Source: Hirudinaria manillensis
Lineage: Eukaryota; Annelida; Clitellata; Hirudinida; Hirudinidae
Reading direction: 5' to 3'
DNA: 64,000 nucleotides
Assembly: GCA_034509925.1 (NCBI GenBank)
Contig: CM067528.1
Location: 3,224,501 to 3,288,500, forward strand
The number at the start of each line of letters is the position of its first letter. Within the stretch, counting starts at the first letter, position 1. A program made the position numbers and the translations under genes. A model generated the notes under the pieces. It saw nothing but the letters and a program-made list of their open reading frames with translations. It was not told the origin of the DNA and ran no database searches. Of the stretch, positions 42,854 through 60,842 are shown in pieces.

Positions 42854-45800
42854 ATGGATCCCCGGACGATGAGGTCGTCTCTCTACTTGTGTTTCTTTCT
42901 GATTGCTGACAGTTTCTACGCAGGTGGGTTCTTCATTACTTTTCTATTTTACTTTACTCTGTCGTAAACTTTGTTGTGAGTGGACCTGTTGTTGTTGTTG
43001 TGTAGTGTTGTTGCTGTGTTGTCGATAGGATTATTATTGTTGTTGTTGTTGAGGTCCTTGTCTTGTCGGATTCTTGGTGAGACTGGCAGACGATCCTGAA
43101 AAAGCGGGAGATTCAAGAGTTTGTTTTGAACGATTCTCGTGAATATTTTATTCCCTCAGAAAATAAAGAATCGTGTCAAAGTAGAGTGGATTGCTGGCAA
43201 CGAAATGTCTTTCTGTCTTTCGAAATTTAGACATTTATTTATTTATTTGTTTATTTGCAAAACGAGAAGAAGACAAATGACCGTTACTAACATAGCAACA
43301 ACAACATCAAAAAATTATTATTATTATAATTAACCAGTATAGTTAGAAAGTAATTTATGCATCAATGTTGGATATTTAAGTAAGTTATATTTTCAAACTG
43401 TTGTAGTCTCAAAAACTAACAAGGAATTCCTCCTCAGGATTCGAAGCTATTCTGGCAGTCGAAAATAATTTGTCGCATTTAAGACCTTAATTAGTAAAAA
43501 AAAAAGGAAATTTTTAAAAACTCCATCGAGTTGGTAAAAGGAAGCAATCAACAAAACAATTTTGAAGCGGGAAAATCCATCTCGAATCGTGAATGGAGAA
43601 TTTCTCGTCCATTAAAAATATTATTTCTCATTAGAAATATTATTTTTAAAAATTATTATTATTATTATTATTATTATTATTGTTATTATTATTATTATTA
43701 TTATTATTATTATTATTATTATTATTATTATTATTATTACCATATATTTTTTTCTACTAGAAAGTGATAAGAGAAAAGAAAAACAATTGACGACGTTCGA
43801 TGGATCAATTCAGGGAATCACTGTTTTTGTTTTTTGTTTTTTTTGTTGTTTTGTTGTGTTTTTTTCAGTTCCGTGTTTCTGCAACTTTTTTTTTGTTTTT
43901 CCTACTCCTTCTTCAACAATTGAGACTTTAGTTTCCTTAAAATGGAGTCGAAATTATGTCGTTTTGAAATTATTTCGAATTAAAACGTTGGCAACGATTG
44001 ATTTAAAAAAATCGACGACAACAACAACAACAGCAAAGACGACGACGACGTTGACAATCTTTCAACAACAACAACAACAACAACAACAACAACAACAACG
44101 ACATCAACAACAACATCAGCAGCAGCATTAAGTAGGAGATTTAGCTTTTTAAAGAGCATTTTCCCTTGATTTAAACATCTTTTGTTCGTGTTGTCCGATC
44201 GAAAAATAAATAAAAAAAATAAAAAAAAAATAAAAAAAGAAAGATTGTAAAACTACATACAAACAAAAAACATGTCAACACGTCATAATTTTGAATTATA
44301 CCTTATAATGTCCATTAACTGTTTTATGACATTTCGTGAGATTAAACATGACAATCAGATGCTGCTCAGCATTTTGACGCCAGACGCGATGTTCGAATGC
44401 GCTACATCATTCCCTGACCCTCATCTAGTACATAACTAATTAGCTTAAAAATAATAATAATAATAATAATTACAGGTAAATGACGTAACACATTATCAAT
44501 CCGTTTAAAATATGGGCTTATTATGCAAATCCTCAGAAGGCTTAATTTGAGCGTCAACAATCCAACATTAATTTATCTTTTAAATATCTTATTTTTTATT
44601 TTATTTTTAAAAAATCCCCAAAACAACCTCTTTCACCTGTCCATCCTTCTTTCTTGTCTGTTTGTCTTGCACTGAAATTATTTCAGAAAGTTAGAAATTC
44701 TAACATCTTAAGGTCGCATCCATCACCTGCAAGTAATATTTTCATTATTTTCAATAATAATAATAATTTTTAACAATATTTTTTTATAATTACTTTGTAA
44801 TTGTAACAATTATAAAAGTGATTTGATTATATTATTATTTAATACTATTTTCATTATGATACAATTTTAATAATAATAATAATAATAATAATTTCGTTTT
44901 ACCAGCCGAAATAATTGATATCCAGTATTTATTTTCTCCGGAAACTCAGTTGAATGCCGTTGAAGAAGCAACAATGTACAAGACTTCAAGTACATTTCAG
45001 TGCTTTCAGGGAAGTCGATAATATAATAATAACCTATTATTATTATTATTATTATTATTATTATAGTCATCATATAATAATTAATTATTAAATAATAATA
45101 ATTATTAAATTAAGTTATAATAATAATAATAATAATTAATGACTGCATTTATTGAAATATATAATAAATAATTGATGTAATGAAATTATAAATACATTAA
45201 TTTATAATAATTATTTTTGGTTGAATTATCTTGATAAAAATATTCATAATAAATGTTTACAAAATCACAACACGTAAATATCTTATTATAAGTTTGAAAA
45301 TTGACTGAAAACATTGCAAAATAATTTCAGCACAAATGTTACTTTAAACCTACGCTGAGAATCCAAATGATTTATTCTCAATTTTCTTTACATTTTTTCC
45401 GAGATTTAAGAATATTTAATCAAATTGCATTTTATTGCTCGCAGAAACGTGGATATTTATGAATCTGGATATTATGAATCGGAATATATTATGAATTATG
45501 AATATATTATGTAATGAATTATGAATATAAATATTATATTATAAATTATGATATTATGAGTCGGAATATTTATGAATCTGGATATTATGAATGAGAATAT
45601 TTATAAATCTGGATATTATGGCTTCTTTCGAATCTGAATAATTTACGAAATATGTGCCATATATTTCTCTTAATATGTGCAATGAAAAGAGAACGAAATT
45701 AAGCATCAAAAGGATCATCAGACACTTTGCCGAACAATAATTTCTTGTTTTTCTCGATTTCAGTGAGAAAAGATATTAAAAATTTAATAAAACAATACTT

Positions 45801-48800
45801 TGATATTTTTTCTTGCCGGTGCTAAAATTTTTACCCGGATGTGATCATTACCATCGCTCCCACAGTAGTAGTAGTAGTGGTCGTCGTCCTCGTCGTTGTC
45901 GTCGGCATCATCTTCGCCATCGTAATGGTGAGCATCAAAATTAATATTACAATCACCATTCATTCATTCGCCGTTGGTCAATGTCAAAGAAAAGATAGAA
46001 GAAAGGATAAAAGAGTGGAGAGCGATGGGTGGGTAGATGGGTGGATAGATGGGTGGGTGGGCGGGTAGATGGGTGGGTGGGCGGGTAGATGGGTGGGCGG
46101 GTGGGCGGGGGGAAACAAAACCTAGGCTTCATTCGTCTTCGGAAAACTTCTCAGAAGAAGTTCCAAAGACAAGTCGTGTCAGAACAATGGAGGAAACATT
46201 AAAGAAGACCAGGTGATTGTTGCAGTTAATTGGAAACGATTCGAATAATCGTCTGCCTAAATGCGCGCTAATGTCATCGGCATTGTTTTCCTCCTCCTTC
46301 TTCTCATTCTGCCACCGGATCTCCAGCCATAAAGTTGAAGATTCCAGGAGTTTCAGCGGAACGTTTCAGACGACGGAGTGGAATAAATTTTCCTCGTCCA
46401 AGTGACGATGACGAACGAACATTTCCATCCGAGGAAAATCACTTGCTTATTCCGTAGTCGTCTGCGCTCAGAGATTATGACCCGGATTCACCTCCGGACA
46501 CCTGTAGTGGCGCTTTATGATGCCGGGAAATTCCCCTGTCTATTTCTGGCCTCGGTCGACTGTGACGTCACCTGAATTCAATAAAGCGGCCCTGGAAACA
46601 AATGAGAGCGTCTAATAAACACGCTACACCAAGCGCCAGAGGAATTGAATTGATGGTCGGAATCAGCCAAGCGGAACGACGGAAGAAGCGCCAGGCCGTG
46701 ACGAACACACGGTCACGGGCGATTGATTCTCTTAAACAAGGCGAATAGATTCAGAGATTGAGATAGCATCCTCGTAAAGTTCGTTCGAGTCCCGGAGTTC
46801 ACTTTTAAACGTTTTGGAAGCGAATGAATTGAAATCGAAACACGTCGAAATGGATTTCCCGACGTTATGTCGTTGGGCCGTTTCACTTTCGAAACTCGCG
46901 TTCAATCCAACTGCGAACCTCCGTGTTTCTTTCGATTTTCTTTTTTTTATTCTTTTTGTTCTTTTTTTCTGTTGAAAAAAAAAATTTCCGCAAAATCAGA
47001 ATTCCTCCGAGCGCCAGGAACAGCTACGAAAGCAGTCAGCAGCTCGGAGATGGTGGAAGACTCCTTCAATGACGAACGAGTAATGGCTCGCGATAGGCTC
47101 CCGTCAGTGCAAATAATTGGTCTCCATCAAGCAAGCTCCACTCGATTTGTTAGGAGAGCGTGTTGGGGATGACTCGGCAGGAAGTCTCCGGGGAGATCTC
47201 CCCCTGTTACCCCACGTGGTCCTTCACAGCCACCCCAACCTCCCCTTTGCACACCTACCCGCTTTTGCTCTTTTTCTTTCTTCTCTCTCTCCCTCCTTCA
47301 CGGCCACTCCATCTGTCGGAAAGAACAAAACCGCTCTGCATTGAGTTGTTTTATCGATGATACGTCGACAGGTGCACGTTCAAGAGACCACCCGCGATCT
47401 AAGCAACAAATTTCCTTCTCACTTTGATCCACCTTCAGTGACGATGTCAATGACGATGATGCAGCTGCTGCTGACGACGACGACGACGATGACGATGATG
47501 ATGATGATGATGATGATGATGATGATGATGATGATGATGATGATGATGATGATGATGATGATGATGATGATGATGATGATGATGATGATGATGATGATGA
47601 TGATGATGATGATGGAGGAGCTGATGATGTTGATGATGACGACGACGATGGTGATGGTGGTGGTTTTCAAATGCATAACTGATGATCATAAAACGAGGAT
47701 GATGACGACGACGTCGATGGCAGCGAAGCTTTTAGTTGCCAATGACGACGATCCCCCAGCGTTTCTGGACTCGAAATGACGTGAAAATGACTGACTATGA
47801 CGTCGGATTTGAGTTCCACTCAGACAAGACTACTTACGATTTTGAGACTTTGCAACACTTTTGTTTGGAATTTGTTTGGAGGATTGGAATCTGGAAAGCT
47901 TTTTCTCGATTGTTGCATTTCACTCGATCACTCACTCACTCAGTCAGTCTATCTATCTCTTCTTCATCTTTATCATCTCCATCAACATCATCATCTTCTT
48001 CTTTTTCTTCTTCTTTCCAGCTCTGTCATTGAAACAAATGGAATGTATTTGCAATGCAAATATTTTGAAAGATTCCCTTCCGTTATTAGAAGCGGAGCGT
48101 TTTTCGTGCATTTAAAATTCAAAAGTTCATTGCAAAAACTTGGCGAAAAATGAGCTTCGAACACGCAAGGCGTTGGACGCGGTTCTAGATGAGAAGACGT
48201 GACGTCAGAGACTTGACCTTCAAGGTCACTTCGAGGTCGTTAGCCTAGCTCGATAGGTCAAGCGGATGACCTCTTGAATCGAATTAGCGCGCAGTGATTC
48301 AAATTTAAACGATTACATTAATTAAAAAGTTAATTAATTGAAGCTCCAACTTTTATGATGATGATGCCCATGACGACGACGACGATGACGGATTATTATA
48401 GCGCTTAATTATTTAATAGCAAATAAATAAAAATGTTTAAAATCGAATGAATAGGAACGTTAAAATATAGTCGATTCTGATAATCAAATGAAAATCAAAT
48501 GTCAACAAAATAATGGTAATAATAATAAAAATAAAAAAAGCATAACATCGCAAGTCTTATCAACTCCAAGGTCGCTCGGAGGTCATACAGGGTCCGAACC
48601 TGCACAGGCTGAGGGCAGGATCGTCGGCCACCTTCCGGTGCACGGCCGACGTCGTCTTGGAACACGAAGAGGAGGAAGAAAAAGATGAAGGAGGAGGAGG
48701 AGGAGGAGGAAGAGGAGGAATGGACGGGAAGAATCCGGCCAGACAAAACCTTCTGTCCATCCAGTGGAGAAAGGAAGAGTTGACAATCAATCACTCACCT

Positions 48801-60705: not shown

Positions 60706-60842
60706 GAATCCAGGCGTCATTCAGCTCTTCCAGGAGTTCCATTCTTTTCCATGTCCCTCTCCATTCCATGAACCTCTACATTTCAAGTGTTCTGTTGGCT
60801 ATTTCTGGAAATTGGATGCGTTTTGTCCGACATTGTAACTAA
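60706..60842 (+). CDS. Candidate alternative terminal exon of the L1-like gene (hydrophobic tail)
   Basis: If exon 12 splices at GCG G|GTTAGA (end 60415), a pyrimidine-rich acceptor (tttatttctccag) opens an exon at 60706 in the matching phase. It reads GIQASFSSSRSSILF... then SMNLYISSVLLAISGNWM and RFVRHCN-stop (TAA 60840-60842), totalling 832 aa. The Ser-rich stretch followed by a hydrophobic segment could be a GPI-attachment signal or a single membrane anchor with a seven-residue tail. A preceding intron in this gene uses a very similar donor (CTC G|GTTAGT at 59989). AATAAA at 61093-61098 would fit as poly(A) signal. Confidence 0.55.

Follow-up and report, generated by a model that had tools for sequence, protein, structure and literature searches.

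The genome of the leech Hirudinaria manillensis carries, on a 64,000-nucleotide stretch (contig CM067528.1, positions 3,224,501 to 3,288,500; here called the window and numbered from its first base), a gene that, judged by its fibronectin type III (FN3) domains and its single immunoglobulin (Ig) domain, appears to be derived from the L1 family of adhesion proteins, yet departs from the domain count that defines this family. It is fairly probable that the locus represents a protein-coding paralog of the L1/neuroglian type, whose signal exon is joined straight to the exon of the sixth Ig domain (Ig6), without Ig1 to Ig5 and the L1 tail, and to which an extra FN3 domain has been added. The missing Ig domains are Ig1 to Ig5, whose exons were not found at the locus. 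A reduced L1-family protein with one Ig and six FN3 domains had been proposed in an earlier note on the same DNA, and the proposal is supported by searches for both types of domains and by the comparison with other L1-type genes of this leech (paralogs A–G, I, and J).

The gene model comprises 13 exons on the forward strand (42854–60842), which join in phase and encode 832 codons plus stop. The predicted protein consists of a signal peptide, one Ig domain, six FN3 domains, and a short stretch encoded by the C-terminal exon. The reading frames were joined by hand, and the exon borders were picked to fit the domains and to keep the frame; all 12 introns are bounded by GT and AG, and the 832 codons are free of in-frame stops.

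Members of the L1 family are characterized by six Ig domains, three to five FN3 domains, a transmembrane (TM) segment, and binding sites for ankyrin (FIGQY) and ERM proteins, according to PMC2346466; the number of six Ig domains is also based on PMC2672934. The window gene possesses L1-type FN3-1 to FN3-5 in the canonical order but has one N-terminal Ig domain instead of six (in the 64 kb of the window and 8 kb upstream), six FN3 domains instead of three to five, and no FIGEY/ankyrin-binding tail that could be detected in the window and 8 kb downstream. It shares an Ig6 encoded by a single exon with leech paralogs, a trait that lies outside the published criteria. The domain layout of the subfamilies of Ig-type cell adhesion molecules, including L1, is described as strikingly conserved and almost completely preserved in Caenorhabditis elegans (PMC2672934). 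Among the matches listed for openly licensed PMC papers, there was no report of an Ig-depleted L1 variant or of an expansion of L1 genes in leeches. If the interpretation is true, this leech, in which one of at least ten L1-type loci is devoid of the Ig1–Ig4 adhesion module and the ankyrin-binding tail, would represent a natural experiment on the requirement for the individual parts of L1 in its different roles. Leeches possess a classical nervous system, in which the L1-type protein Tractin has been studied.

The Ig domain and the signal exon

The single Ig domain is encoded by exon 2 (48571–48939, forward strand), which is entered and left in phase 1. It belongs to the I-set family (Pfam, 40.2 bits, E = 3.7e-10) and retains the Cys-Trp-Cys core. 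Among the leech domains compared, which included only part of Ig1 to Ig5 as competitors, it is closest to the membrane-proximal Ig6, as the earlier note had claimed, with 23.7 bits for paralog B, 19.6 for A, 17.0 for I, and 10.1 for C; the highest match other than an Ig6 is the Ig5 of paralog A (9.9 bits), and the Ig6 domains of D and J are outside the best eight matches. The matches in the PDB, with titin and contactin-2 on top, are unspecific for L1. In paralogs A, B, C, and D, Ig6 is also contained in one open frame or exon, like that of the window gene. The first Cys is separated from the Trp by an acidic, Gly-rich insertion of low complexity, which is encoded by a GA-rich repeat at 48660–48740.

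There is no sign of a second Ig domain, neither in the first intron nor in the entire window. An Ig profile, which was built iteratively on the leech L1-type loci (where most Ig domains are split over two exons) with the window left out, was searched against all stop-to-stop frames of at least 25 amino acids on both strands; it recovered exon 2 (E = 7e-8), followed only by an FN3 exon (E = 4.6) and noise. The number of Ig pieces detected at E < 0.3 is one in the window, 6 in paralog A, 9 in B (one of which, with E = 0.2 and located downstream of FN3-5, is probably spurious), 10 in C, 7 in D, 7 in E, 6 in F, and 5 in G. The same profile yielded 12 rows at E < 0.5 for paralog I, the first of which (E = 0.24) is probably spurious; for paralog J, 6 rows were obtained at E < 1. 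Some of the rows counted for the paralogs are weak. No Ig row at E < 0.5 was found in the 8 kb that precede the window. When the three forward frames of 42854–48970 were read through and compared to Pfam, Ig families were confined to the exon at 48.6–48.9 kb, which leaves the first intron (5,647 bp) without a further Ig domain, as the earlier note had it; the forward strand of 33000–42853 contains no Ig or FN3 domain at E ≤ 0.01 in Pfam. The concern that Ig exons had been skipped in the model is made unlikely by the profile search of both strands of the window and the region upstream.

Exon 1 (42854–42923, forward strand) provides an ATG and a predicted signal peptide (MDPRTMRSSLYLCFFLIADSFYA); a second possible in-frame Met is located at 42869, and a stop in frame precedes the ATG by about 30 bases. 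The exon ends in phase 1 at a GTGGGT donor, with 42924 as the first base of the intron, and joins the Ig exon in phase, in agreement with the original description. The region 27000–48570 (21.6 kb) was scanned for frames that combine an ATG, an n-region, a hydrophobic core, small residues at the cleavage site, and a phase-1 donor. At donor scores of 5 or higher, three rows were obtained on the forward strand: two represent the exon at 42854 with alternative start codons, and the third is a poly-isoleucine repeat frame. The reverse strand, which served as control, yielded no rows. The poly-isoleucine repeat frame, the sole other forward candidate at this threshold, was rejected as an alternative signal exon. 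The donor score of exon 1 (9.6) is by far the highest among the forward candidates of the region, but 6 of the 11 other donors in the gene model themselves fall below the threshold of 5 (2.1–4.7). The best donor and the in-phase join make it unlikely that exon 1 is part of a different transcript, a possibility that had been raised earlier. Lowering the threshold to −5 yielded 12 rows on the forward strand and 15 on the reverse strand, including one forward candidate in the first intron (43800, donor −2.7). Because the thresholds were set after the candidate had been seen, the scan supports the signal exon but does not prove it.

The FN3 domains and their relationship to L1

The FN3 domains (F1–F6) are encoded by exons 3–12, all on the forward strand. 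FN3-1 and the beginning of FN3-2 are located on exon 3 (51871–52244), and the remainder of FN3-2 on exon 4 (53531–53765), which ends with the residues YSGED, as in neuroglian. Each of the following domains is distributed over two exons that were assigned by their scores with leech FN3 domains: FN3-3 over exons 5 (54381–54511) and 6 (54598–54880), FN3-4 over exons 7 (57275–57394) and 8 (57777–57968), FN3-5 over exons 9 (59393–59518) and 10 (59607–59780), and the extra domain, F6, over exons 11 (59870–59989) and 12 (60248–60415). FN3-3 contains the motif RRKR (54742–54753), a predicted furin-type site. That the domains are six in number, as originally claimed, is borne out by Pfam, the alignment with neuroglian, and the leech FN3 scores taken together.

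The relationship to L1 is most evident in the case of FN3-1 and FN3-2, which match Drosophila neuroglian (PDB 1cfb) with 141 bits (E = 2.8e-40) and retain the neuroglian motifs HNAPxFHY and YSGED. Contactins are GPI-linked (glycosylphosphatidylinositol) proteins with six Ig and four FN3 domains. They share the combination of Ig and FN3 domains with the window gene, and contactin-4 (about 87 bits) is among the next-best PDB matches of FN3-1/2, but the higher score with neuroglian led us to reject a contactin identity. In a pairwise comparison with paralogs A, B, D (excluding FN3-2), and I, the top match of each of the domains F1 to F5 is the domain of the same number (77.1, 69.2, 60.7, 33.9, and 46.5 bits, respectively), whereas scores with paralog domains of other numbers do not exceed 14.4 bits. 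The exception to this pattern is the FN3-4 of paralog D, which matches F5 better (14.4 bits) than the FN3-5 of the same paralog (10.7 bits).

F6 is probably a diverged extra copy of FN3-5, judging from its scores with the FN3-5 domains of paralog B (22.3 bits), the window gene itself (19.5), and paralogs A (13.5), I (8.9), and D (7.5), and with an FN3-5 profile (27.2 bits). In a tree of FN3 domains, 13 of the 17 inner branches remain open, and both F5 and F6 are unsettled on long branches (2.44 in the case of F6), so that the identity of the FN3 domains rests on pairwise and profile scores. The comparison with neuroglian, contactins, a Tractin-like locus, and the paralogs sustains the L1 affinity proposed in the earlier note as far as the scores are concerned, whereas the tree is indecisive.

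Coding signal and alternative explanations

The exons of the window gene differ from its introns in base composition, with a GC content at third codon positions of 0.49–0.79 in the exons versus a GC content of 0.27–0.45 in the introns. A codon-usage test was trained on 17 exon pieces of the paralogs (1,310 codons), and the null stretches were no longer than 45 codons. In this test, exons 2–10 are coding-like, scoring above 95–100% of the stop-free noncoding stretches; exon 12 is borderline, scoring above 94% of them.

The main rival explanation is a decaying paralog, i.e., a former six-Ig L1 gene, either transcribed or silent, that has been eroding since the loss of Ig1 to Ig5 and the tail. 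Several features that weigh against a protein-coding gene are compatible with such decay. Exons 1, 11, and 13 are indistinguishable from introns in their codon usage, with 33%, 22%, and 48% of the null stretches, respectively, scoring equally high. The Ig domain is interrupted by its low-complexity insertion, F6 is divergent, and a tail is not recognizable. Exon 8, a weak point of the model, depends on a non-obvious acceptor chosen by hand, because the pyrimidine-backed TAG at 57743–57744 is out of frame and the AAAG before 57777, 32 bases downstream, had to be used instead. Decay is nevertheless unlikely, because a frame of 832 codons has remained open across 13 exons with in-phase GT-AG introns (even if the exon borders had been selected with this frame in view), because exons 2–10 have the codon usage of coding sequence, and because the Cys-Trp-Cys core of the Ig domain and the signature motifs of neuroglian are retained. 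The case for a protein-coding gene is further weakened by the nature of the 13-exon model, which is a prediction from genomic sequence, and by the scores of individual FN3 domains: the Pfam cut-off of 25 bits is exceeded by F1 (35.0), F4 (41.2), and F5 (40.1) but not by F2 (21.9), F3 (15.6), and F6 (21.7 bits). F2 was accepted because it aligns with neuroglian and with leech FN3-2, and F3 because it aligns with leech FN3-3.

It is improbable that the gene is actually longer, with Ig1 to Ig5 located beyond the searched region or too diverged to be detected and with a signal exon that stems from another transcript or a short isoform. The Ig profile does overlook some true half-exons (it detected about 8 of the 11 expected in paralog B), and leech L1 paralogs can be spread out, as in the case of J, whose Ig and FN3 domains are scattered over roughly 20 kb (C1:8.91 Mb). 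Moreover, a donor threshold of 2.0, which would just include the weakest donor in the gene model (2.1), adds two weak forward candidates for a signal exon, at 33953 (donor 3.2) and 41657 (donor 2.9), to the repeat frame; the 11 rows on the control strand all belong to one poly-Met repeat. A longer gene is contradicted by the lack of a second Ig domain in the window and 8 kb upstream, by the strong donor and the in-phase join of the signal exon, and by a gene on the opposite strand that would lie in between. This neighbor, a calcium-ATPase-type gene (Pfam E1-E2_ATPase, Cation_ATPase, and Cation_ATPase_C), lies within about 17–26.9 kb on the reverse strand, 5' of the window gene. Paralog J had also been considered as a second Ig-less L1 gene but was rejected when Ig exons emerged after 9 kb more of its sequence had been read. 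The case illustrates that upstream Ig domains can be overlooked in a short stretch; the window gene was searched over 48.5 kb plus 8 kb upstream.

The C-terminal exon 13 (60706–60842, forward strand; stop at 60840–60842) is tentative and was placed by phase and splice signals; it encodes a Ser-rich stretch and a weakly hydrophobic tail whose last residues are polar. If intron 12 remained unspliced, the protein would end at the TAG at 60418–60420. A candidate AATAAA polyadenylation signal is located 250 bases past the stop (61093–61098, forward strand), and a further one at 61334. The highest Kyte-Doolittle mean over 19 residues in the protein is 1.36, which does not indicate a convincing TM segment. 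The C-terminus agrees poorly with both a standard GPI signal and a standard TM segment, and this counts against the proposed paralog. Secreted, GPI-linked, and weakly membrane-held forms may all be possible.

The FIGEY tail (PF13882, E ≤ 0.001) matches seven places in the genome (148.43 Mb in 23 contigs) but has no match in the window. When the window and the 8 kb downstream of it were searched with four FIGEY queries (from paralogs A–D) and three juxtamembrane queries (A–C), the best match covered 12 residues with E = 0.043, whereas these queries recovered each other's loci at E-values of 1e-10 to 0.001; about 50 of the 80 matches at E ≤ 10 in this search, which did not comprise membrane queries, were inspected, and none was convincing. 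Queries with membrane segments found only poly-leucine-type repeats among their best 30 matches. The gene might instead extend downstream to a TM segment and a tail of a type other than FIGEY, which would make the product a membrane receptor with unusual signaling. This reading is suggested by paralog I (the best match of FN3-1, with a TM segment and a tail that lacks FIGEY) and by a few hydrophobic open frames 3' of the gene, which lack L1 features. It is very improbable in view of the two polyadenylation signals, the lack of an L1-like tail match in the window plus 8 kb, and the result of the membrane-segment queries. An open frame about 3.5 kb downstream of the window (L028, about 3530–3900) resembles what we take to be a copine C2 domain.

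The protein-coding paralog with a single Ig domain may have arisen by deletion of the exons for Ig1 to Ig5 between the signal exon and the exon of Ig6. Such a deletion would preserve the frame because both exons have phase-1 junctions. FN3-1 to FN3-5 would have been retained in order, and a tandem duplication would have added the FN3-5-like F6. Because neither a FIGEY tail nor a juxtamembrane motif was found, the protein is probably either secreted or anchored through a short tail of hydrophobic or GPI-like character; it may be cut at the RRKR site of FN3-3. L1-type adhesion requires a horseshoe of four N-terminal Ig domains (PMC9239158); since Ig1 to Ig4 are missing, no homophilic adhesion of this type is expected. 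The protein would probably form a released or surface-tethered rod instead, consisting mostly of FN3 domains, that binds other partners. Toward the full-length paralogs of the leech, for example, it might serve as a ligand, a decoy, or a cis-modulator. These functions are deduced from domain content, which weakens this part of the interpretation.

L1-type genes in Hirudinaria manillensis

The genome contains at least ten L1-type loci, namely paralogs A–G, which possess a FIGEY tail, paralogs I and J, and the window gene. Like neuroglian and L1CAM, the window gene has FN3-1 to FN3-5 in order, including the matching FN3-1/2, but it differs from them by its one Ig domain, its six FN3 domains, and the absence of a detectable tail. 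A related case is the nematode L1 member LAD-2, whose cytoplasmic part is short (about 28 amino acids in Bma-LAD-2); Bma-LAD-2, however, retains six Ig domains, five FN3 domains, and a TM segment (PMC9239158).

The closest comparison within the same animal is paralog A (C1:13.56 Mb). It carries proline/glycine (YGPGGP) repeats inside FN3-5, the hallmark of Tractin, and was taken to be Tractin on that basis. Its Ig6 and its FN3-1 to FN3-5 correspond to those of the window gene, and both genes have a basic, cleavage-like stretch in FN3-3; similar basic stretches occur in the FN3-3 of paralogs B and I. By contrast, paralog A has six Ig pieces in the sequence blocks covered, the YGPGGP repeats, a TM segment, and FIGEY. 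Paralog I (C4:2.25 Mb, L030–L031), by our own reading of its sequence, combines six Ig and five FN3 domains with a TM segment and a tail that lacks FIGEY. Apart from the window itself, no other place in the genome matches the FN3-1 exon of the window gene as well as the FN3-1 exon of paralog I does (37% identity); paralogs with an intron-split FN3-1 rank lower partly because of the split.

A reduction in the opposite direction to that of the window gene is present in paralogs E (C12:5.42 Mb, L011–L012), F (C1:0.16 Mb, L013–L015), and G (C5:7.33 Mb, L021–L023), where 5–7 Ig pieces and a FIGEY tail were detected in the sequence blocks covered, whereas FN3 pieces were not. A Pfam search of the forward strand of E (L012:1–5400) and G (L023:1–3000) detected no FN3 domain. 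In L012, there is also a match to a membrane segment of the L1 type. Paralog C yielded only two FN3 pieces. Gain and loss of domains seem to be common in the L1-type family of this leech. Of the ten loci examined, the window gene shows the most extreme loss of Ig domains and is the sole Ig-depleted one. It is conceivable, if doubtful, that L1 has been split here into complementary half-molecules, with Ig-only receptors that carry FIGEY at three loci and, at the window gene, an FN3 rod depleted of Ig domains and lacking a tail; the two kinds of molecules might interact with one another or with Tractin.

Two further observations concern the paralogs themselves. The region C15:16001–24000 (L035), on a small contig, is a copy of part of J with 98.7–98.8% identity and perhaps represents an alternative haplotype. 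The FN3-5 of paralog A includes a very long frame of YGPGGPYGPGG repeats (L009:4896–6959, C1:13.57 Mb).

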